64,000 nt of DNA from Acidobacteriota bacterium (GTDB taxonomy: Bacteria; Acidobacteriota; Blastocatellia; Chloracidobacteriales; Chloracidobacteriaceae), in NCBI GenBank assembly GCA_016208495.1, contig JACQXX010000070.1, positions 124,001 through 188,000 of the forward strand, written 5' to 3'. Below the pieces are notes generated by a model. That model did not search any database and was not told the origin of the DNA. It saw only the letters and a list, made by a program, of their open reading frames with translations. Below are positions 5,079 through 58,780 of this stretch, piece after piece (the first letter of the stretch is position 1; each line of letters begins with the position of its first letter). Made by a program: the position numbers and the translations under genes.

Positions 5079-5111
5079 AGGGTTCAGGGTTCAGGGTTCA
5101 GGGTTCAGGGT
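5079..5111 (-). repeat. Heptamer tandem repeat (CCCTGAA on coding strand) before DUF393 start
   Basis: Four tandem copies of the 7-bp unit, reading CCCTGAA on the strand of the DUF393 gene, end 15 bases before its start codon. Between this and the stop codon of the upstream gene lies a purine-rich run of 9-10 bp GGGACAAAA-type repeats (5120-5157). The same heptamer recurs before several other start codons in the window. Confidence 0.9.
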
Positions 5112-5158
5112 TTCAAATTTTTGTCCCTTTTGTCCCTTTTGTCCTTTTTGTTGTCCTG

Positions 5159-14366: not shown

Positions 14367-14442
14367 CAGAATGAAGAATTGAGAATGAAGAATTGAGAAT
14401 GAAGAATGAAGAATGAAGAATTGAGAATGAAGAATTGAGAAT
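14367..14442. repeat. Heptamer tandem repeat (AGAATGA / AGAATTG)
   Basis: About ten alternating 7-bp units AGAATGA and AGAATTG on the plus strand, i.e. CT-rich on the coding strand of the oxidoreductase starting at 14362. The same units occur at 14812-14847, after the stop of the next upstream gene and in the opposite sense, and after the recD2 stop at 58514-58578. Confidence 0.9.
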
Positions 14443-14448
14443 GACCTG

Positions 14449-33338: not shown

Positions 33339-34730
33339 TCAGCCCAGCGCCTTCAGTCGGTTCAGAAGTTCTTCCTTTTCATCCCGATAGAACATGTTGA
33401 AGGTATCAAACGGGATGATCCGTCCATCCGGGTGGACAATGTGAACGCAGCTTTTTTTGACGGATCGCACGTCGAAGTTAAATGGATCCAAAAATTGCAT
33501 AATCAAAATCCGGAAGACATTTTCATAGCCAATCGAATCGGGCACCTGAACCAGCGGCAGACAACACAGGAGTTGTTTGAGTGACAGCGCGGAGGATTGG
33601 GGTGAATGCGAGGTCGAAAAGAGCTTGAAGACGTGGTCTTTGATCGCGGGATCCTGTTCATACACGATGGTATTGCTGCCGTGCTGGAGCAACACGTTTG
33701 GGTCAATCAGGCTGGTCAGCGGGACCGCCTGGCCATTGACTTTCAAGGCGTAAGCCATCGCCAGACAGTCAGGATGACATGGCACCGGGATCATATCTGC
33801 CGGAGAGAGCCACGAGCATTGTTTGAGAATTTGCTGGCGGACTTCGCCAAGTGTCAACCGGTCTCGGGCTGGATCAAAGTTTTCCACCCGCCCCGCATTC
33901 TGAATCGGCTGAAACGTCACGCCGCGAACGCAGGGCTGTTGCAGCGCAAACTCAACGATCTCACCGATTTCGCTGTCATTTAACCCTTTTTTCAGCGTCA
34001 CCACCAGCGTGGTTGACAGGTTGTACCGGTTAAGTCGTTCGAGTGCCCGCCGGTGGACTTCGCGTAAATCGAGGCCGCGCAGTTCCTTGATTGGCTCGGC
34101 TCGAAGCGAGTCAAACTGCAGGTAAATTTCAAAATCAGGCAGGTATTCGCTCAGGCGTTTGACGAATTCTTCATCTTGAGCAATCCGAATCCCGTTGGTA
34201 TTGACCATTATATGTTTGATCGGACGGCGTTTGGCCGCATCAAGAATGGCAAAAAATTCAGGATGAATCGTCGGCTCTCCACCACTAATCTGGACAATAT
34301 CGGGCTCGCCTTCATTACAGACGACACAATCGAGCAAAAACTCAACCTGTTCGAGTGAGCGCCACGTCTGGCGATGCGGCCCCGATTCGGCATAACAAAT
34401 TGGACATTGCAAATTGCACTGGTCGGTAATTTCAACCAGCGTCAGGCAACTGTGCTGTTCGTGGTCGGGGCATAGACCGCAATCGTAGGGGCATCCGTAC
34501 CTGATCGGGGTATTGAATTTAAGCGGCATCTGGCCTGGTTTCAGGTAGTTGCGCGCGAGTTTGTAGTATTCGACATCCGTCGAAATCAGCACCCGCTGGT
34601 GTTTGTGCTCCGGGCAGTATTTGTGCAGAAACACCTGGTCATCCTGAAAAATGACTTTGGCTTCGACCTTGCGGAAACAGGTCGCGCAGATGCTGTTGGT
34701 CAACTCATAGAAAAGATAAGGTCGGTCCAT
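33339..34730 (-). CDS. Radical SAM protein of the tetraether-lipid-synthase (Tes)-like family
   Basis: 463 residues. The core radical SAM motif is CNLQCPIC (C105, C109, C112), followed by a GGEPT motif. The N-terminus has extra cysteines in the pattern of Tes/MJ0619-type proteins: C15/C18, C39 in YCPEH, and CPYDCGLC...HSC (C80, C84, C87, C95). Archaeal Tes uses such extra sites for additional Fe-S clusters and an iron centre and joins lipid tails carbon to carbon. Bacterial homologues are linked to membrane-spanning lipids, which Acidobacteriota are known to make (iso-diabolic acid). The role here is therefore plausibly lipid-tail coupling; that is inference. The start is preceded by five heptamer repeats and no visible Shine-Dalgarno. 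Confidence 0.82.
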   Translation of the reverse strand: MDRPYLFYELTNSICATCFRKVEAKVIFQDDQVFLHKYCPEHKHQRVLISTDVEYYKLARNYLKPGQMPLKFNTPIRYGCPYDCGLCPDHEQHSCLTLVEITDQCNLQCPICYAESGPHRQTWRSLEQVEFLLDCVVCNEGEPDIVQISGGEPTIHPEFFAILDAAKRRPIKHIMVNTNGIRIAQDEEFVKRLSEYLPDFEIYLQFDSLRAEPIKELRGLDLREVHRRALERLNRYNLSTTLVVTLKKGLNDSEIGEIVEFALQQPCVRGVTFQPIQNAGRVENFDPARDRLTLGEVRQQILKQCSWLSPADMIPVPCHPDCLAMAYALKVNGQAVPLTSLIDPNVLLQHGSNTIVYEQDPAIKDHVFKLFSTSHSPQSSALSLKQLLCCLPLVQVPDSIGYENVFRILIMQFLDPFNFDVRSVKKSCVHIVHPDGRIIPFDTFNMFYRDEKEELLNRLKALG

Positions 34731-34736
34731 AAAATA

Positions 34737-34771
34737 GGGTTCAGGGTTCAGGGTTCAGGGTTCAGGGTTCA
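34737..34771 (-). repeat. Heptamer tandem repeat directly before the radical SAM start
   Basis: Five copies of CCCTGAA on the coding strand end about 6 bases before the ATG at 34730. Same unit as at 5079-5111, 47124-47147 and 56243-56309. Confidence 0.92.
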
Positions 34772-34940
34772 GGGAAATCCAATTTTTTCAAGAATGACAG
34801 GCATGGTTGAGTAGAGCTTACTGATTGAACACCCGCATGTAACTTCAGGTTCAGGCATTGTTCATTTTCCATTCAGGATTTGGAAACAGCGTTGTGACTA
34901 ATTCTCAAGTGTAACCAACCATTACCTGAGAGGAATTGCC

Positions 34941-36902
34941 ATGAAACTGTTTTCAAAATCTGAACCTGCTGAAAATACAACATTTGAAGAAATCCTGTCG
35001 CGCCGCATCGAGCGCCGTTCATTCCTGAAAGGGGCGCTTTCCGCAGCCCCATTGCTGGTGGCTGGAACATCGTTGATTGATTCGACCGATGCCAGTGCTC
35101 AGGAACTTCCACTCGACGATGAGGACCTGACGCTGGGAACGGCTGAAAATCGAGCGGCAACCCTGGCCGATAAACTCGAATTCCTCCCCATTCGTCTCAA
35201 TACTGAAGATCGCATCACGGTCGCCAATGGATATGCGGCCTCGGTTTTGCTCAAATGGGGAGATCCGCTGACGAGCAATGCCCCGGCGTTCAGTTTGATT
35301 CGCCAAACCCCAGCCGCCCAGGCTGAGCAATTTGGCTTTAACTGTGATTATGTCGGCTATTTCCCCTTGCCGAACTTTGCCGCCAAAAGCTCAACCACTG
35401 GACTGCTGGTGGTCAACCACGAATACACTGACCCGCTTAATATGTTTTTGGGCTATCAGGCGGGAAACCCTACCAAAGATCAGGTGGATATCGAACTCGC
35501 TGCCCACGGGGCGTCAGTGGTTGAAATCGAGCGGACGTCAAACGGGTGGCGCTATAAAGTCGGTTCTGCCTTCAATCGCCGCATCACCGGTCAAACCGAA
35601 ATCCTGTTTACTGGACCTGCGGCTGGAAATGAATTGCTGAAAACTTCGGAAGACCCAACTGGAACACGTGTGCTTGGAATGCTCAACAACTGCGCTGCCG
35701 GAAAGACGCCGTGGGGCACGGTACTCACCTGCGAAGAAAACTTCAACCAGTATTTTGCCAACAACGGTAAGCTCACGGATGCAGACCCACGCAAACGAGT
35801 TCACAGCCGGTATGGGCTGACCAGCGCGGCGAGCGAACGGGCCTGGGAAAAGTTTTACAACCGGTTTGACATTGAAAAAGAACCAAACGAACCGTTCCGC
35901 TTTGGCTGGGTGGTTGAGTTTGACCCCTATGATCCGACGTTTGTGCCGCGCAAACGCACTGCCCTGGGGCGGTTCAAACACGAAGCCGCGACAACTGTGG
36001 TCGCCAAAGATGGCCGGGTTGTGGTCTACACGGGGGATGACGAGCGGTTTGACTATATGTACAAATTCGTCACCAAAAACAAAGTCAATCTGCAAAATCG
36101 GGCTGCGAATTTCAACTTGCTGGATGAAGGCACCCTCTATGTTGCCAGATTGAGCGACAATGGCACTGGAACCTGGATTCCATTGATTGGCGGCCAGGGC
36201 CCACTGGCTGGCTGGACGCAAGCCGACGTCTGTATCAACACCCGTGGAGCGGCTGACCTGGTTGGCGCCACCAAAATGGATCGTCCTGAAGACATTGAAG
36301 TCAACCCGGTCTCCGGTAAAGTATATTGTGTAATGACCAATAATACCCGCCGGGGAACTGACAACAACCCGACCACCGATGCGGCTAACCCACGCGCAGC
36401 TAACAAACATGGTCATATCATCGAACTAACCGAAGCCGGTGACGATCATGCCGCAACTGCTTTTGAATGGGATATTTTTATGCTCTGTGGTGACCCACAA
36501 GTTGCTGCTGACGGTGTGTATTACGCCGGATTCAGTCTGGCGGGAATGAGTCCGATTTCAACGCCGGACAACATCACGTTTGATAAGCGTGGGAATTTGT
36601 GGATTTCAACCGACGGCATGCCGTCAACCCTCAAAGTTCACGATACCATTTATGCTGTGCCCACCGCCGGCCCCAATCGTGGGAAGCTCAAACCATTTTT
36701 GAGTGCTCCGATTGGCGCCGAGATTTGCGGCCCGGAAATGACTCCGGCCAATGACACGTTTTTCTGTGCGATTCAGCATCCAGGTGAAGGCGGCACGGTT
36801 GAAAAACCAACCAGCACCTGGCCGGATGGCACCACACCAGCTCGTCCGAGCGTGATTGCCGTGGTCAAAACATCAGACGGTTCAAAAATCATCGGGCGGT
36901 AA
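34941..36902 (+). CDS. phoX: PhoX-family alkaline phosphatase (DUF839), Tat-exported
   Basis: 653 residues, usual PhoX length. The N-terminus has a twin-arginine signal, RRSFLKG (R25, R26), with a following Ala-rich hydrophobic stretch. The body is a large beta-propeller with family motifs such as NNCAAGKTPWGTVLTCEENFNQYF, GRFKHEAATTV, YTGDDERFDYMYKFV and DRPEDIEVNPVSGKVYC. PhoX enzymes are Ca/Fe-dependent phosphomonoesterases (and some diesterases) that release phosphate outside the cytoplasm. I see no obvious Pho box upstream. The start has GAGAGGAATTGCC upstream, a good ribosome-binding site. It is divergent from the radical SAM gene. Confidence 0.93.
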   Translation: MKLFSKSEPAENTTFEEILSRRIERRSFLKGALSAAPLLVAGTSLIDSTDASAQELPLDDEDLTLGTAENRAATLADKLEFLPIRLNTEDRITVANGYAASVLLKWGDPLTSNAPAFSLIRQTPAAQAEQFGFNCDYVGYFPLPNFAAKSSTTGLLVVNHEYTDPLNMFLGYQAGNPTKDQVDIELAAHGASVVEIERTSNGWRYKVGSAFNRRITGQTEILFTGPAAGNELLKTSEDPTGTRVLGMLNNCAAGKTPWGTVLTCEENFNQYFANNGKLTDADPRKRVHSRYGLTSAASERAWEKFYNRFDIEKEPNEPFRFGWVVEFDPYDPTFVPRKRTALGRFKHEAATTVVAKDGRVVVYTGDDERFDYMYKFVTKNKVNLQNRAANFNLLDEGTLYVARLSDNGTGTWIPLIGGQGPLAGWTQADVCINTRGAADLVGATKMDRPEDIEVNPVSGKVYCVMTNNTRRGTDNNPTTDAANPRAANKHGHIIELTEAGDDHAATAFEWDIFMLCGDPQVAADGVYYAGFSLAGMSPISTPDNITFDKRGNLWISTDGMPSTLKVHDTIYAVPTAGPNRGKLKPFLSAPIGAEICGPEMTPANDTFFCAIQHPGEGGTVEKPTSTWPDGTTPARPSVIAVVKTSDGSKIIGR

Positions 36903-37243: not shown

Positions 37244-38023
37244 TTAAATTTCAGCTTGATTGGCTGGGGGAGTTGTCTGTTGAAGCCCAAATTTGAGTGT
37301 GAACCAGCAAAACACTGCCGCACCAAGCGCCGCCCACTGAATCGCGCTCAACCCAAAATATGGATAAGGTCGTGGCTTGATAAACTCAATTCCAAATCGA
37401 AATGCAAAGTAGCCGAACATAAATAGCCGGAACAAATACCCGTTAAAGTGTGGTTTCTGGGTATGCCAGCGGAGGAACATCCCAAACAGGATCAGAAAGA
37501 GTATTTCATAGATTTGCGTCGGGTGACGCGGCAGGTGGTCTTCGAATCCAAAATCAACGCCCCAGGGAAGGGTCGTGGGCACACCATACGTCACATCATC
37601 TTTTCCAGTCAGAAAACATCCAACCCGACCGATGCAGGTTCCGACAATCATCGGAAAGACATAGACATCACCTGTCGAATAGGTAACACCAACCAGCTTT
37701 TTCGCCAGTTCGACCCCCATCCAGCCTCCGATAAACCCGCCGACAATCGTTTTTCCCTCCAGCCAGACCATGGGGTTGGTTCGCGTGTGTTCGAGGTAGT
37801 AGGGCAAAGCTTCGAGCCAGTTCAAGATTTTAGCCCCAAACAGTGCGCCGAAAATACACCCGACTAAAATCACCATGATTTGTTCAAGTGGCACAAACGC
37901 GGTCTGGTTGCCCTTGCGCAAATGCCGGTACAGATGAAAGCCAACTGAATAGGCAATCAATTCAAAAAACAAATGTGGGTGAATCGTGAGTCCAAACAGG
38001 TGGATGTAAACCGGAAATGTCAT
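37244..38023 (-). CDS. Prolipoprotein diacylglyceryl transferase-like protein (Lgt family, catalytic residues not conserved)
   Basis: 259 residues with seven predicted transmembrane helices in Lgt order. Family landmarks are KTIVGGFIGGWMG (91-103), GRVGCFLTGKDD (132-143) and RHPTQIYE (166-173). True Lgt has HGG in the first block and GRxGNFxxGE in the second; here the histidine is Val94, the asparagine is Cys136 and the glutamate is Lys141. Lgt transfers diacylglycerol from phosphatidylglycerol to the lipobox cysteine, and the missing residues are essential in E. coli, so this is probably a paralogue with another membrane role. AAACCCTAAACCC repeats precede the start, with no clear Shine-Dalgarno. 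Confidence 0.8.
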   Translation of the reverse strand: MTFPVYIHLFGLTIHPHLFFELIAYSVGFHLYRHLRKGNQTAFVPLEQIMVILVGCIFGALFGAKILNWLEALPYYLEHTRTNPMVWLEGKTIVGGFIGGWMGVELAKKLVGVTYSTGDVYVFPMIVGTCIGRVGCFLTGKDDVTYGVPTTLPWGVDFGFEDHLPRHPTQIYEILFLILFGMFLRWHTQKPHFNGYLFRLFMFGYFAFRFGIEFIKPRPYPYFGLSAIQWAALGAAVFCWFTLKFGLQQTTPPANQAEI

Positions 38024-38795: not shown

Positions 38796-39842
38796 TCAGT
38801 GAGAATCTTCTTTTTTCAGAGGAACCACTGCATCAAGTTCCTGAATAAATATGATTAAGTCTCTCGATGTCAATGCTTTGTGCTGCAGCTCAACCAGGTG
38901 TGATTCGTTCAAAATTCCCTGGATGCGCTCTTTTAAAGAAGTCGAAATTTGCCCGAATCGAGTCTCCAGAGTAATCAATAGCATTTTGATGATGCCTTCG
39001 AGTTTGCCTTCGAGTTTGCCTTCGAGTTTGCCTTCGAGTTTGCCTTCGAGTTTGCCTTCGAGTTTGCCTTTGGCCAAAGCCATTCGCTCAATACTGGTTA
39101 CATATGGCATATGATTTTCATCCTCGTAAGTTTGTAATTCATCCTGGAACCTTCGCTCCAGTTCAGGTGGAAGCTCCATAAACCAATCAATTAGACGAAA
39201 GAGTTTTCGGATATCGGCGGCTTCAAATCCACGTTCGTACAGCGAACGGACGATGCGAAATTTCCATTCGCCACGTGTTTGCGGTTCATTTTTGGTTTCC
39301 ATCGTCTTGATGTGAGCCAAAACAATTGGAGCAAATCGATTTTGGCTTGCTTCAAGCGCTTCAACCGACAAATCCATCAGCTTGACGGTGGGAAATCGGA
39401 CCGACATGTCATATCCCCACCGTGACCAGCCGAAAGAATTTGGTCGCCAGTCTTTGGTTTGATCACCCAAGACAACCAGACTCACCACTTGTTTTCCATA
39501 TTCATCATAGATGCGCGCCCCATATCGAAAGAGACGCTCTGGGAACTTACTTTCCCGCCAGCCCTGGACTTCTGTATGGACCAAAACCCATTCGGTTCCA
39601 CCATCGAGTGTCCGAACTTCCTTGAGTTTATCAGCCAGTTGTCGCCCGAACTTTGCCGTCGCCGTGATTTTCTGAAATTCCTTGTCGCGCGATTGGGGTG
39701 GCACACTCCAATCAATGGCATCATGGACAATCGGAAACAACAACTCCAGGAAGTCTTTGAAATATTCGTCCAAAGCTTCTTTCCATGGGCTGTCGTAATC
39801 ATCACGCTCAGTCGGTTCCGTGAAATCGGAATCATCCACCAT
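38796..39842 (-). CDS. Rpn/PD-(D/E)XK nuclease family (transposase-like) protein with KLEG minisatellite
   Basis: About 348 residues from the ATG at 39842, preceded by GAGAGGA. It resembles the Rpn/PD-(D/E)XK nuclease-family transposase group: the N-terminal domain has TEWVLVHTEVQGW (about 85-97), where the acidic and glutamine positions fit ExK-type cores, then FRYGARIYDEYGKQVVSLVVLGD. Near residues 265-290 a KLEG tetrapeptide is repeated about six times, encoded by an exact 12-bp tandem (38995-39066), as often seen in this family. Rpn proteins promote recombination or act in phage defence in some bacteria; the role here is unknown. It lies downstream of the kmo gene's stop-side... spacer on the minus strand, with no transposon ends visible. 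Confidence 0.75.
   Translation of the reverse strand: MVDDSDFTEPTERDDYDSPWKEALDEYFKDFLELLFPIVHDAIDWSVPPQSRDKEFQKITATAKFGRQLADKLKEVRTLDGGTEWVLVHTEVQGWRESKFPERLFRYGARIYDEYGKQVVSLVVLGDQTKDWRPNSFGWSRWGYDMSVRFPTVKLMDLSVEALEASQNRFAPIVLAHIKTMETKNEPQTRGEWKFRIVRSLYERGFEAADIRKLFRLIDWFMELPPELERRFQDELQTYEDENHMPYVTSIERMALAKGKLEGKLEGKLEGKLEGKLEGKLEGIIKMLLITLETRFGQISTSLKERIQGILNESHLVELQHKALTSRDLIIFIQELDAVVPLKKEDSH
38995..39066 (-). repeat. Six exact 12-bp tandem repeats inside the Rpn-like gene
   Basis: The unit CCTTCGAGTTTG is repeated six times without mismatch on the plus strand, encoding repeated GKLE/KLEG on the minus strand. Copy number can change by slippage in steps of four residues without breaking the frame. 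Confidence 0.97.
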
Positions 39843-39927
39843 CTTCGTTCCTCTCAAAATGATTGTTGTTACCCCTGATGGTCTTCAGCCCGTTTTCTTC
39901 AGCCCCAAGCCCTAAGCCCTGCTTTTT

Positions 39928-43494: not shown

Positions 43495-43503
43495 AGAAGA
43501 ATG

Positions 43504-43683
43504 TGGTTAGTGGTTAGTGGTTAGTGGTTAGTGGTTAGTGGTTAGTGGTTAGTGGTTAGTGGTTAGTGGTTAGTGGTTAGTGGTTAGTGATTAGTGATTA
43601 GTGGTTAGAAATCAATGCTTTCGAAGAAGCACCAGGCACAATGAACCAGGGACTAGCCACTAACCACTAACCACTAACCACTA
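43504..43683. repeat. Heptamer TTAGTGG tandem (about 15 copies) with inverted copies, between convergent genes
   Basis: About fifteen copies of TGGTTAG/TTAGTGG run from 43504 to 43608, and the inverse CCACTAA appears four to five times at 43652-43683. For both flanking convergent genes (kinase, dioxygenase) the coding strand thus reads TTAGTGG after the stop codon. The two arrays could pair into a long hairpin. Confidence 0.95.
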
Positions 43684-53954: not shown

Positions 53955-54125
53955 GTTCCGGGTTCCGGGTTCCAGGTTTGAAAAACAGGGTTCGAGATTC
54001 CGGGAAAGGACATCAAGGACGACAGGGACAAAAAGGACCAAAATTCGAAAACCCGGAACCCGGAACCCGGAACCCGGAACCCGGAACCCGGAACCCGGAA
54101 CCCGGAACCCGGAACCCGGAACCCC
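53955..54125. repeat. ACCCGGA heptamer tandem (about ten copies) with inverted copies
   Basis: From about 54050 to 54124 the 7-bp unit ACCCGGA is repeated ten times, and inverse units GGGTTCC appear at 53957-53978. On the coding strand of the flanking minus-strand genes the stop of the coiled-coil gene is followed by GGTTCCGG units, and the HPt gene is preceded by GGAACCCGG units, again G-rich first. Confidence 0.93.
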
Positions 54126-56309: not shown

Positions 56310-58517
56310 ATGGACTCGACTCAACCCAGAATTTTAGTCGGTGTTGTTGAACGTGTAACCTATCATAATGCAGATAGTGGTTACACGGTTGCTCGTTTAC
56401 GCGTGGCTGGTGAAAAAGATCAGGTGACAATCACCGGGAATTTCCCGGCGATTACACCCGGAGAAACCCTCCGCTTGACTGGGGTTTGGATCAGCCATAA
56501 ACAATATGGCCCGCAATTTAAAACCAGTTCCTATGAGGTGTGTAAGCCAGCCACCATTGCCGGGATTGAAAAATATCTTGGGTCTGGATTAATCAAAGGG
56601 ATTGGACCTGTCACCGCCAAACGAATCGTGGCTCATTTTGAAGACAAAACACTCGACATCATTGAAAATGAAATCGAGCGGCTACTGGAAGTTGACAGCA
56701 TCGGCAAAAAGCGGGTTCAGATGATTACCCGGGCCTGGGCTGAACAAAAAGCTGTTAAAGAAGTCATGCTTTTTCTCCAATCGCACGGGGTGACGACACA
56801 CTTTGCGGTCAAGATTTTTAAGGAATACGGCCCTCGCGCCATTCAAACCGTTTCAGAAAACCCCTTTCAACTGGCGCGAGACATTTACGGCATCGGGTTT
56901 AAAACGGCTGACCAGATTGCCGCCAATCTGGGAATTGCGCCAGATTCAGTCGAGCGGATTCGAGCCGGAATTACCCACATTCTGTCAGACGCCACCGAGA
57001 ACGGGCATTGTTTTTTACCTGAATCAAAACTGATTGCCGAAACCGAAGCTCTGCTCACGACCAACGTTCCGGAATTGATCCGGCGCACAGCCATGCAAAT
57101 GGCCCACGAAAAGGAAGTCCAGCTTGAAGTTCGACCGGCACCAGATGACGACGACCCGGAACGGTTATTCTACCTGCCGTCGCTCTGGTATGCCGAACAA
57201 AACGTGTCCCGATTACTGCGCGGGTTGCTGGCCAGACCGCTCAATTATGATGAATTGAAAGTCTTTAGCTGGCTTGAACGCTACACGAGAAAAGAAAAAC
57301 TCGAACTCTCTGACGAACAAAAACTGGCGATTTTGACTGCCACTCAGCACCGGGTGATGATTCTGACTGGCGGCCCTGGGTGTGGGAAAACCACGACGCT
57401 CCGGGTTATGGTGAAACTGTTGACGGCGATGGGGAAGCGGGTCCAGTTGGCCAGTCCCACCGGTCGGGCATCACAACGACTCTCGGAAGTGACTGGCGTC
57501 GAAGCCCGCACGCTCCATCGGTTGCTGGCGTTTGACCCCAAAGAACGCGCCTTTACACGCAATGCCGAGTTCCCGCTTGATGCCGATGTGGTGATTGTGG
57601 ATGAAGCCTCAATGCTCGACATTGTACTGGCTTCGCACCTGCTCAAGGCGGTTCCATCCACCGGGCAACTGGTGCTGGTGGGCGACGTTGATCAGTTGCC
57701 GTCGGTTGGTCCAGGCCGAATGCTGGCCGATGTGATTGATTCTAAAGTGATTCCGGTCATCCGACTGACCCAGGTGTTTCGTCAGGCGCAGGGAAGCCTC
57801 ATCATTACCAATGCTCATCGGATTCGGGACGGACACTTTCCGCGATTGATTGCCCCCGGTGGTGCGGAAGTCACCGATTGTTATTACCTTGAGGCTGAAG
57901 AACCCGAAGATATTCACAAGCTGCTCATCAATGCCGTAACTCGAAGCCTTCCCAAACGGTTTGGATATGATCCGCTGGCTGACATCCAGGTGTTGACCCC
58001 GATGAACCGTGGTTCGGTAGGCGCCGCCGAACTCAATTTGATCTTGCAGCAACACCTCAATCCGTTTGCTTCAAACAAAGAGCAAATCGAGAAAATGGGC
58101 CGTGTCTTTCGCGAAGGCGACAAGGTCATCCAGAAGGTCAACAATTATCAACTCGAAGTCTTTAATGGAGATGTGGGCCTGATTCGCAACATTGACACCG
58201 AAAATCACACGGTCTGGATCGAATTTTCCGAGCGCGAAGTCGAGTATGACTGGGCTGACCTGAACGAACTGGGGCACGGTTTTGCCATGTCGGTTCACAA
58301 AAGCCAGGGTTCGGAATATTCGGCGGTGGTGATGATCCTGCATGCTCAAGCCTGGCCGGTGCTCAGCCGAAATCTGGTGTACACCGGACTCACCAGGGCG
58401 AAAAAAACCGCCGTCCTCATCGGCAACAAACGTGCCATTGGCGCCGCCATGCGCAAAATGGAAGCCAGTACGCGCAACACCCGGCTCGCTGAAATTTTGC
58501 CGTTGCCGATTGAATGA
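56310..58517 (+). CDS. recD2: ATP-dependent DNA helicase RecD2
   Basis: 735 residues, normal for RecD2 (SF1B, 5'-3' helicase). The N-terminal OB-like region is followed by helix-hairpin-helix repeats (LIKGIGPVTAKRIVAHF, 94-110; GIGFKTADQIAANLGI, 195-210), then the helicase core with Walker A GGPGCGKT (354-361), motif II VDEASML and QVFRQA, and the C-terminal HKSQGSEY motif near residue 667. RecD2 unwinds DNA with 5' overhangs in repair and genome stability in bacteria without RecBCD. The TGA stop is itself part of a following GAATGAA repeat unit. There is no Shine-Dalgarno sequence; a heptamer tract abuts the start. Confidence 0.96.
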   Translation: MDSTQPRILVGVVERVTYHNADSGYTVARLRVAGEKDQVTITGNFPAITPGETLRLTGVWISHKQYGPQFKTSSYEVCKPATIAGIEKYLGSGLIKGIGPVTAKRIVAHFEDKTLDIIENEIERLLEVDSIGKKRVQMITRAWAEQKAVKEVMLFLQSHGVTTHFAVKIFKEYGPRAIQTVSENPFQLARDIYGIGFKTADQIAANLGIAPDSVERIRAGITHILSDATENGHCFLPESKLIAETEALLTTNVPELIRRTAMQMAHEKEVQLEVRPAPDDDDPERLFYLPSLWYAEQNVSRLLRGLLARPLNYDELKVFSWLERYTRKEKLELSDEQKLAILTATQHRVMILTGGPGCGKTTTLRVMVKLLTAMGKRVQLASPTGRASQRLSEVTGVEARTLHRLLAFDPKERAFTRNAEFPLDADVVIVDEASMLDIVLASHLLKAVPSTGQLVLVGDVDQLPSVGPGRMLADVIDSKVIPVIRLTQVFRQAQGSLIITNAHRIRDGHFPRLIAPGGAEVTDCYYLEAEEPEDIHKLLINAVTRSLPKRFGYDPLADIQVLTPMNRGSVGAAELNLILQQHLNPFASNKEQIEKMGRVFREGDKVIQKVNNYQLEVFNGDVGLIRNIDTENHTVWIEFSEREVEYDWADLNELGHGFAMSVHKSQGSEYSAVVMILHAQAWPVLSRNLVYTGLTRAKKTAVLIGNKRAIGAAMRKMEASTRNTRLAEILPLPIE

Positions 58518-58578
58518 AGAATGAAGAATGAAGAATTGAGAATGAAGAATTGAGAATGAAGAATTGAGAATGAAGAAT
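58514..58578 (+). repeat. Heptamer tandem (AGAATGA / AGAATTG) after recD2
   Basis: About eight units start inside the last two codons of recD2, so the TGA stop codon is donated by the first GAATGAA unit. Same family as 14367-14442, where it precedes a start with the opposite polarity. Confidence 0.93.
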
Positions 58579-58780
58579 GACCTCAATTTCGCCCCAAATA
58601 GCACCCTGTTGCGCAAAGATCAGTGCCGACCAACCCCGGACCTTGCTCGCAACGGGAGATTTCGTCGAGCCGTACCTGGCATCAAACTTCACCACAGGCT
58701 CCTGATGACTCCCACAAAACTGACTTCCATCTGGGCCTTTATGTCCTTTGGTTCAGGCTCAATCAACCATCTGGGTGACC
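58579..58780. repeat. Dispersed spacer module, homologous to 14440-14680
   Basis: It shares CCTCAATTTCGCCC, AATAGCACC, ATCAGTGCCGACC, TTTATGTCCTTTGG and GGCTCAATCAACCA in the same order with the element at 14449-14716. Here only the left terminal repeat is present, so this may be a truncated copy. From 58781 to 59090 I see no gene, only a GTGGTGCGAAGCCCACGG hairpin (58839-58856). Confidence 0.75.

Follow-up and report, generated by a model that had tools for sequence, protein, structure and literature searches.

The gene at 33339..34730 on the minus strand of the 64,000-nucleotide stretch of DNA analysed here (the window) encodes a radical SAM protein predicted to have the tetraether lipid synthase (Tes) fold, and it belongs to a clade whose members are paired with a gene for an Lgt-like enzyme. 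We assign a probability of about one half to the reading that it is the radical SAM part of an undescribed diacylglyceryl-transfer/radical-SAM module, in which the Lgt-like enzyme is the other component and whose product is not a membrane-spanning lipid. Given that the Lgt-like gene adjoins it across many bacterial phyla, the gene probably belongs to an unstudied lipid-modifying system; a literature search outside the subscription journals returned no report of a pairing between Lgt and a radical SAM enzyme, or of a system built from the two.

Linkage to an Lgt-like gene and local sequence context

The original prediction described the gene as standing alone. However, a gene for an Lgt-like integral membrane protein of 259 amino acids lies upstream on the same strand (37244..38023, minus strand), separated from it in the window by a PhoX-type phosphatase gene (34941..36902, plus strand). 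In G001, a genome of the same family, the Lgt-like and radical SAM genes adjoin each other (69213-69965 and 69985-71346, a gap of ~20 nt), and the phoX gene between the partners in the window is therefore probably a recent insertion. To survey the locus more widely, one genome per species was scanned and the best 80 loci were kept, which are 62-79% identical to the window protein. Clustering of the neighbouring ORFs in these best 80 loci returned one dominant neighbour, the Lgt-like protein encoded directly upstream. By tblastn with nine Lgt-like queries, the Lgt-like gene was found in 75 of the 80 loci; in 71 of them it shares the strand of the radical SAM gene and lies no more than 1.3 kb upstream of it, and in 54 loci the spacing between the two genes was -40 to +30 nt, covering ~11 phyla as counted from record labels, some of which belong to metagenome-assembled genomes and are doubtful. 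The five loci with no Lgt-like match by this search were L110, L114, L115, L116 and L117, and the upstream sequence of L115 and L117 is short. Pairing with an Lgt-like gene recurs in divergent lineages (G231, G017 and two mycobacterial plasmids), and the module is spread over Paenibacillus, cyanobacteria and Acidobacteriota, among which culturable hosts exist.

The two genes also occur together at the level of genomes. Among 297 Acidobacteriota genomes, 17 carry both, one the radical SAM gene alone, one the Lgt-like gene alone and 278 neither (Fisher p=1.7e-25, a value that treats the genomes as independent, which they are not). Members of the radical SAM clade were counted as 17 genomes at 61% identity or above plus the divergent G231, and Lgt-like matches as 18 genomes with at least 114 bits, the next match having 75. 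The exceptions are G267, with a radical SAM gene and no Lgt-like match, and G071, with the reverse; the radical SAM matches in G267 and G135 are partial. Linkage of this kind establishes that the two genes are functionally coupled but does not in itself demonstrate lipid chemistry.

The partner is additional to the housekeeping Lgt, which is also present in all 16 genomes checked and scores 133-206 bits, compared with 79-118 bits for the Lgt-like copy. Similar to Lgt, the partner belongs to the PF01790 fold family (106 bits for the window protein, against a gathering cut-off of 24.9). The Lgt residues discussed in PMC4728403 are R143, E202, Y235, R239 and H103; with the E. coli reference letters taken only from the alignment, all 76 Lgt-like proteins compared retain the positions of R143, Y235 and R239, and 75 of them that of E202. 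In contrast to Lgt, the partner is an extra copy with motifs of its own (GKTxVGG and TGD), and the window protein remains far below the cut-offs of the Lgt equivalog models (67.5 of 334 bits and 42.4 of 118.9 bits). The position of the HGGL His (H103) is occupied by Val in 70 of the 76 proteins. We rejected this loss as proof of an altered acceptor, since the housekeeping Lgts of the same genomes also lack that His, in a comparison in which L202, L206 and L211 gave no ORF.

The original prediction had further drawn attention to a C-rich heptamer leader. An AGGGTTC array of 5.6 copies is indeed present upstream of the radical SAM gene (34736..34774, plus strand), but it is one of many 7-bp arrays across the window and is not specific to this gene, and a leader function was rejected on these grounds. 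The 7-bp tandem arrays are of an unusual style, in that their consensus differs from one to the next (for example 5079-5112, 14368-14444 and 34736-34774; further arrays lie at 43503-43608, 54050-54124 and 58512-58580). The window also contains a perfect 12-bp tandem repeat of 6.5 copies (38993-39070) within an ORF without a Pfam match (38796-39857, minus strand), where it encodes KLEG repeats.

Fold, metal-cluster sites and phylogeny of the radical SAM protein

The ORF begins with ATG, encodes 463 amino acids and contains the radical SAM motif CNLQCPIC (CX3CX2C; codons 105-112, 34395..34418, minus strand). The Pfam domains of the protein are Radical_SAM and the HMPTM (MJ0619-type) zinc ribbon, with nothing else from Pfam. 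Its nearest sequence in the PDB is Tes/GDGT-MAS (7tol, E 2.5e-64), and the alignment with MJ0619 gives 216 bits and 28.9% identity over 485 aligned positions. An AlphaFold2 model based on 39 aligned relatives (mean pLDDT 83, pTM 0.86) superimposes on 7tom with Z 43.5 and rmsd 2.6 over 419 aligned residues at 29% identity. Given that the next different protein in the structure search reached only Z 19.5, a Tes fold is well supported for the modelled protein. In calling this a Tes-like radical SAM gene, the original prediction was right about the ORF, the motif at residues 105-112, the superfamily and the fold.

Assignment to a curated family is another matter. The NCBIfam Tes model (NF045702) gives the window protein 284.5 bits, below its cut-off of 450, while an acidobacterial Tes-type protein used as a control (L022) scores 579.5 bits. 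The best curated model is that of TrsS (NF045646), which matches the full length with 316.5 bits and is likewise below its cut-off, here 490.

To compare the metal sites, we aligned 92 sequences of the query clade, 80 from the species scan and 12 further ones. The sites described for Tes in PMC9433317 include a rubredoxin site (C9/C12/C33/H36), an N-terminal cluster, [Fe4S4]N (C73/C77/C80 and a His), and the radical SAM cluster. The rubredoxin-like ligands correspond to C15, C18, C39 and H42 of the window protein (codons 15-42, 34605..34688, minus strand) and are present in 92 of 92 sequences. The same is true of C80, C84, C87 and H90 at the [Fe4S4]N positions (codons 80-90, 34461..34493, minus strand), although invariance at residues 80-93 is partly by construction, as these motifs were used in the scan patterns. 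Next to them, the alignment identifies a Q-H-x-C motif (QHSC; codons 92-95, 34446..34457, minus strand), which is common to the window protein, L051, the par2 clade, the mycobacterial proteins and most other rows on the query side of the tree, and absent in Tes. The protein, as read from its translation, has 16 cysteines outside CNLQCPIC, and the original prediction had placed seven extra cysteines in the order of Tes. This holds for the six Cys and two His before the radical SAM motif, but not for the C-terminal set, which differs from that of Tes.

In Tes, the C-terminal cluster, [Fe4S4]C, has a labile Met439, and Tyr459 is reported to be conserved in 1,000 archaeal homologues and not essential in vitro (PMC9433317). 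All three of C338, C455 and C470 occur in the full-length archaeal Tes, bacterial Tes-type, TrsS, 685-residue (see below) and par2 rows of the alignment (L024 ends early), and we therefore infer that these cysteines are the [Fe4S4]C ligands. In the query clade, the C455 position is Ser, Thr or Ala in 92/92 sequences, and the C470 position is Asp in 91 and Glu in one (Asp442 of the window protein; codon 442, 33405..33407, minus strand). The Tyr459 position is Ile throughout (92/92), and Met is found at the Met439 position in 63 of the 92. Other cysteines are conserved instead: C318 of the CHPDC motif is invariant (92/92), while C322 at the C338 position is Cys in 64/92 (codons 318-322, 33765..33779, minus strand); a CC motif that is not in Tes (C389 and C390; codons 389-390, 33561..33566, minus strand) is invariant in 92/92; and so is C428 at the C456 position (codon 428, 33447..33449, minus strand; 92/92). 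As aligned, L051 retains C318 and C428, and by eye it shows CNC in the matching region. C318, C389, C390 and C428 may therefore form a four-Cys cluster, a proposal that comes from conservation, because the model is uncertain at residues 350-395, the stretch containing C389 and C390. Judged by the alignment, none of the 92 clade members retains the Tes form of the C-terminal site, which in Tes holds the covalent S-C intermediate; the site has been remodelled throughout. A check for conservation of the extra cysteines thus had a divided outcome: the rubredoxin and N-cluster ligands are retained in 92/92 and the Tes C455 and C470 positions are lost in 92/92.

A phylogenetic comparison with archaeal and bacterial Tes, suggested along with the original prediction, did not place the protein among them. 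In a tree of 57 rows, which leaves out L156, a branch with support 100/99 parts TrsS, archaeal and bacterial Tes and the 685-residue proteins from the query side, which comprises par2, four other rows, L021, L051 and the query clade. In a second tree, from which seven long-branch rows were removed and to which two plasmid rows were added, forcing the query clade together with Tes costs 68.5 log units (AU p=2.05e-6; this is a quick tree for which the program warns of long branches). On these phylogenies the query clade lies outside Tes. The trees also bear on the very remote prospect that the gene product is of the TrsS type, or else a class D radical SAM enzyme, as yet uncharacterised, that is linked to a methyltransferase. 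Full-length similarity, a similar compact C-terminal region and the highest curated score all favour TrsS; yet that score is far below the cut-off, true TrsS proteins form a separate clade and keep Cys at the Tes positions 455 and 470, and the partner of the window protein is Lgt-like, not a methyltransferase as in the par2 clade and the haloarchaeal match.

Several relatives met in this comparison merit a record of their own. L034-L042 (family f34) are true TrsS proteins in Acidobacteriota that score above the NCBIfam cut-off, and several of them have one in-frame TGA, consistent with selenocysteine. The par2 proteins (L163, L164 and L166) are a sister radical SAM clade of the CKEF type with an adjoining methyltransferase gene; the methyltransferase beside the acidobacterial par2 member appears by eye to be ArsM- or TrsM-like. 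Radical SAM relatives from a haloarchaeon and from Mycolicibacterium (L181 and L184) also adjoin a methyltransferase gene. A defence system was considered as well and rejected, as PADLOC shows only generic viperin radical-SAM similarity (49 bits).

Membrane-spanning lipids and the 685-residue homologue

The principal claim of the original prediction was that the gene could make membrane-spanning lipids. The possible involvement of bacterial Tes homologues in lipid synthesis is an already published hypothesis: PMC8941075 proposes them for brGDGT synthesis, and such homologues have been used to suggest possible makers of these palaeothermometer lipids (PMC8941075, PMC11868695). Iso-diabolic acid is listed among the common features of subdivision 4 strains (PMC4644332) and is present in Chloracidobacterium (PMC12816986), and the g4 relatives carry the gene. 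Together with the Tes fold (Z 43.5) and the similarity to MJ0619 (28.9% identity, 216 bits), these observations favour a bacterial synthase that joins fatty-acid tails into tetraether or membrane-spanning lipids. We nevertheless consider this improbable for the window protein: the Tes C455 and C470 positions are lost in the remodelled cluster site of all 92 sequences, a single clade with Tes is rejected (AU p=2.05e-6), the score is below the Tes cut-off that the acidobacterial Tes-type protein exceeds with 579.5 bits, and the near-obligate pairing with an Lgt-like gene would be left unexplained. Compared with Tes/GDGT-MAS (MJ0619; 7tol, 7tom), the window protein shares the fold, the rubredoxin site, the N-terminal [Fe4S4] ligands and the radical SAM motif, but its C-cluster ligands are replaced, ~20 residues fewer precede CHPxC, and it belongs to another clade and has an Lgt-like partner.

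The distribution of the gene argues in the same direction. Of 58 relatives, most of which belong to the class, 14 have a full-length orthologue at 66% identity or above and one more has a fragment, while at least 54 have a Tes-type homologue of 685 amino acids. In the genome of the window, this homologue is located on another contig (G000:C88; L002 1228-3285, L217 8408-10465), near ORFs that by eye resemble metK and ahcY. Like the window protein, it has the Radical SAM domain and the HMPTM zinc ribbon. In contrast, the alignment indicates that it keeps C338, Met439, C455 and C470, with Tyr at or next to the 459 position, and lacks the N-terminal cluster cysteines, and it groups with bacterial Tes at 100/100. 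Of the two proteins that this genome encodes, the 685-residue one is the better tail-coupling candidate.

This distinction matters for surveys of brGDGT producers. Loose BLAST cut-offs, such as those given in PMC8941075 (E below 1e-50 and identity over 20%), could collect the query clade, which has 216 bits and 28.9% identity to MJ0619, although its cluster site and partner point away from brGDGT synthesis. The change of C470 to Asp, the CC motif and the Lgt-like neighbour offer a simple filter for telling this clade from true Tes.

Proposed chemistry and candidate acceptors

In the module that we propose, the Lgt-like enzyme, in which the positions of the essential Lgt residues R143 and R239 are kept, would take diacylglyceryl from phosphatidylglycerol and transfer it to an acceptor; the best candidate acceptor, where present, would be the outward-facing Cys of a small protein. 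The radical SAM enzyme would abstract a hydrogen, either from the lipid or from its acceptor, and the rebuilt C-terminal cluster may act as an electron acceptor or relay rather than as the S-C trap of tail-to-tail coupling. The product would be a modified diacylglyceryl lipid or a lipid-protein conjugate. A lipid role for the gene is plausible because of the Lgt-like partner, and the module would open a specific question on bacterial lipid or lipoprotein chemistry. A more general proposal is tentative: Lgt-type and Tes-fold radical SAM enzymes could constitute a widespread system that installs a radically modified diacylglyceryl on a membrane acceptor, often the C-terminal Cys of a small protein. 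If true, this would be a class of lipid-protein or polar-lipid modification not described before, and it would explain why some 'bacterial Tes homologues' are found in organisms without tetraethers.

Alternatively, the pair might make a free polar lipid, such as the betaine lipid DGTA, with the Lgt-like enzyme alkylating the head group and the radical SAM enzyme editing the product. DGTA is a predominant polar lipid of Chloracidobacterium and described as unique in the class (PMC12816986). The g4 relatives have the pair, and Lgt chemistry could conceivably give an sn-3 ether. However, BtaA is missing from five genomes of other families that have the pair (G014, G018, G021, G026 and G034), and the pair is missing from several f4 genomes that have BtaA, which makes this reading quite doubtful. 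A link to DGTS/DGTA through BtaA was rejected on this mismatch in distribution between the BtaA family and the pair. To our knowledge, DGTA has not been reported from Paenibacillus or cyanobacteria.

Returning to the proposed transfer to a membrane acceptor, a small ORF with at least two predicted membrane segments lies directly downstream of the radical SAM gene in 53 of the 78 loci that have enough downstream sequence, and is absent beside the pair in the other 25, about a third. A Cys is located within the last 30 residues of 52 of these 53 small proteins, compared with 26% expected from the rest of their sequence, L134 being the single match without it. The proteins have three helices; the conserved Cys is near the end of the last one, and in 41 of 52 the residue before it is A, G or T. 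Judging from the positive charges between helices 2 and 3, this Cys seems to lie at the outer face of the membrane, where Lgt works. The radical SAM protein of G017 is very divergent, and there the operon runs from the Lgt-like gene through a small protein ending VLAGTCFAIVMAYQ to the radical SAM gene. Plasmids of Mycobacterium avium and M. branderi carry, in a row, an Lgt family gene, two small C-terminal-Cys membrane proteins and the radical SAM gene.

These arrangements also agree with a reading in which both enzymes act on one target: the substrate of the radical SAM enzyme would be a peptide or protein, perhaps the small C-terminal-Cys protein, and the Lgt-like enzyme would attach a lipid to it. 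The known acceptor of Lgt is a protein Cys (PMC4728403), and the position of the small-protein Cys, the residue before it and the two small proteins between the plasmid genes all fit. We nonetheless regard this as rather unlikely, given that many loci, the window included, have no such small gene next to the pair, and that no peptide-binding domain was found, Pfam returning only Radical_SAM and the zinc ribbon. For the module as we propose it, the same gaps mean that the small protein cannot be the universal acceptor: about one third of the loci lack it, and a search of the window's own genome, G001 and G003 returned no convincing match.

Beyond these cases, the small gene is found beside the pair in G014, G018, G021, G026 and G034 (E 1e-17 or better) and, by inspection, in G292. 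At G026:C50:22858-23684, three tandem copies of the small protein are encoded beside one radical SAM gene.
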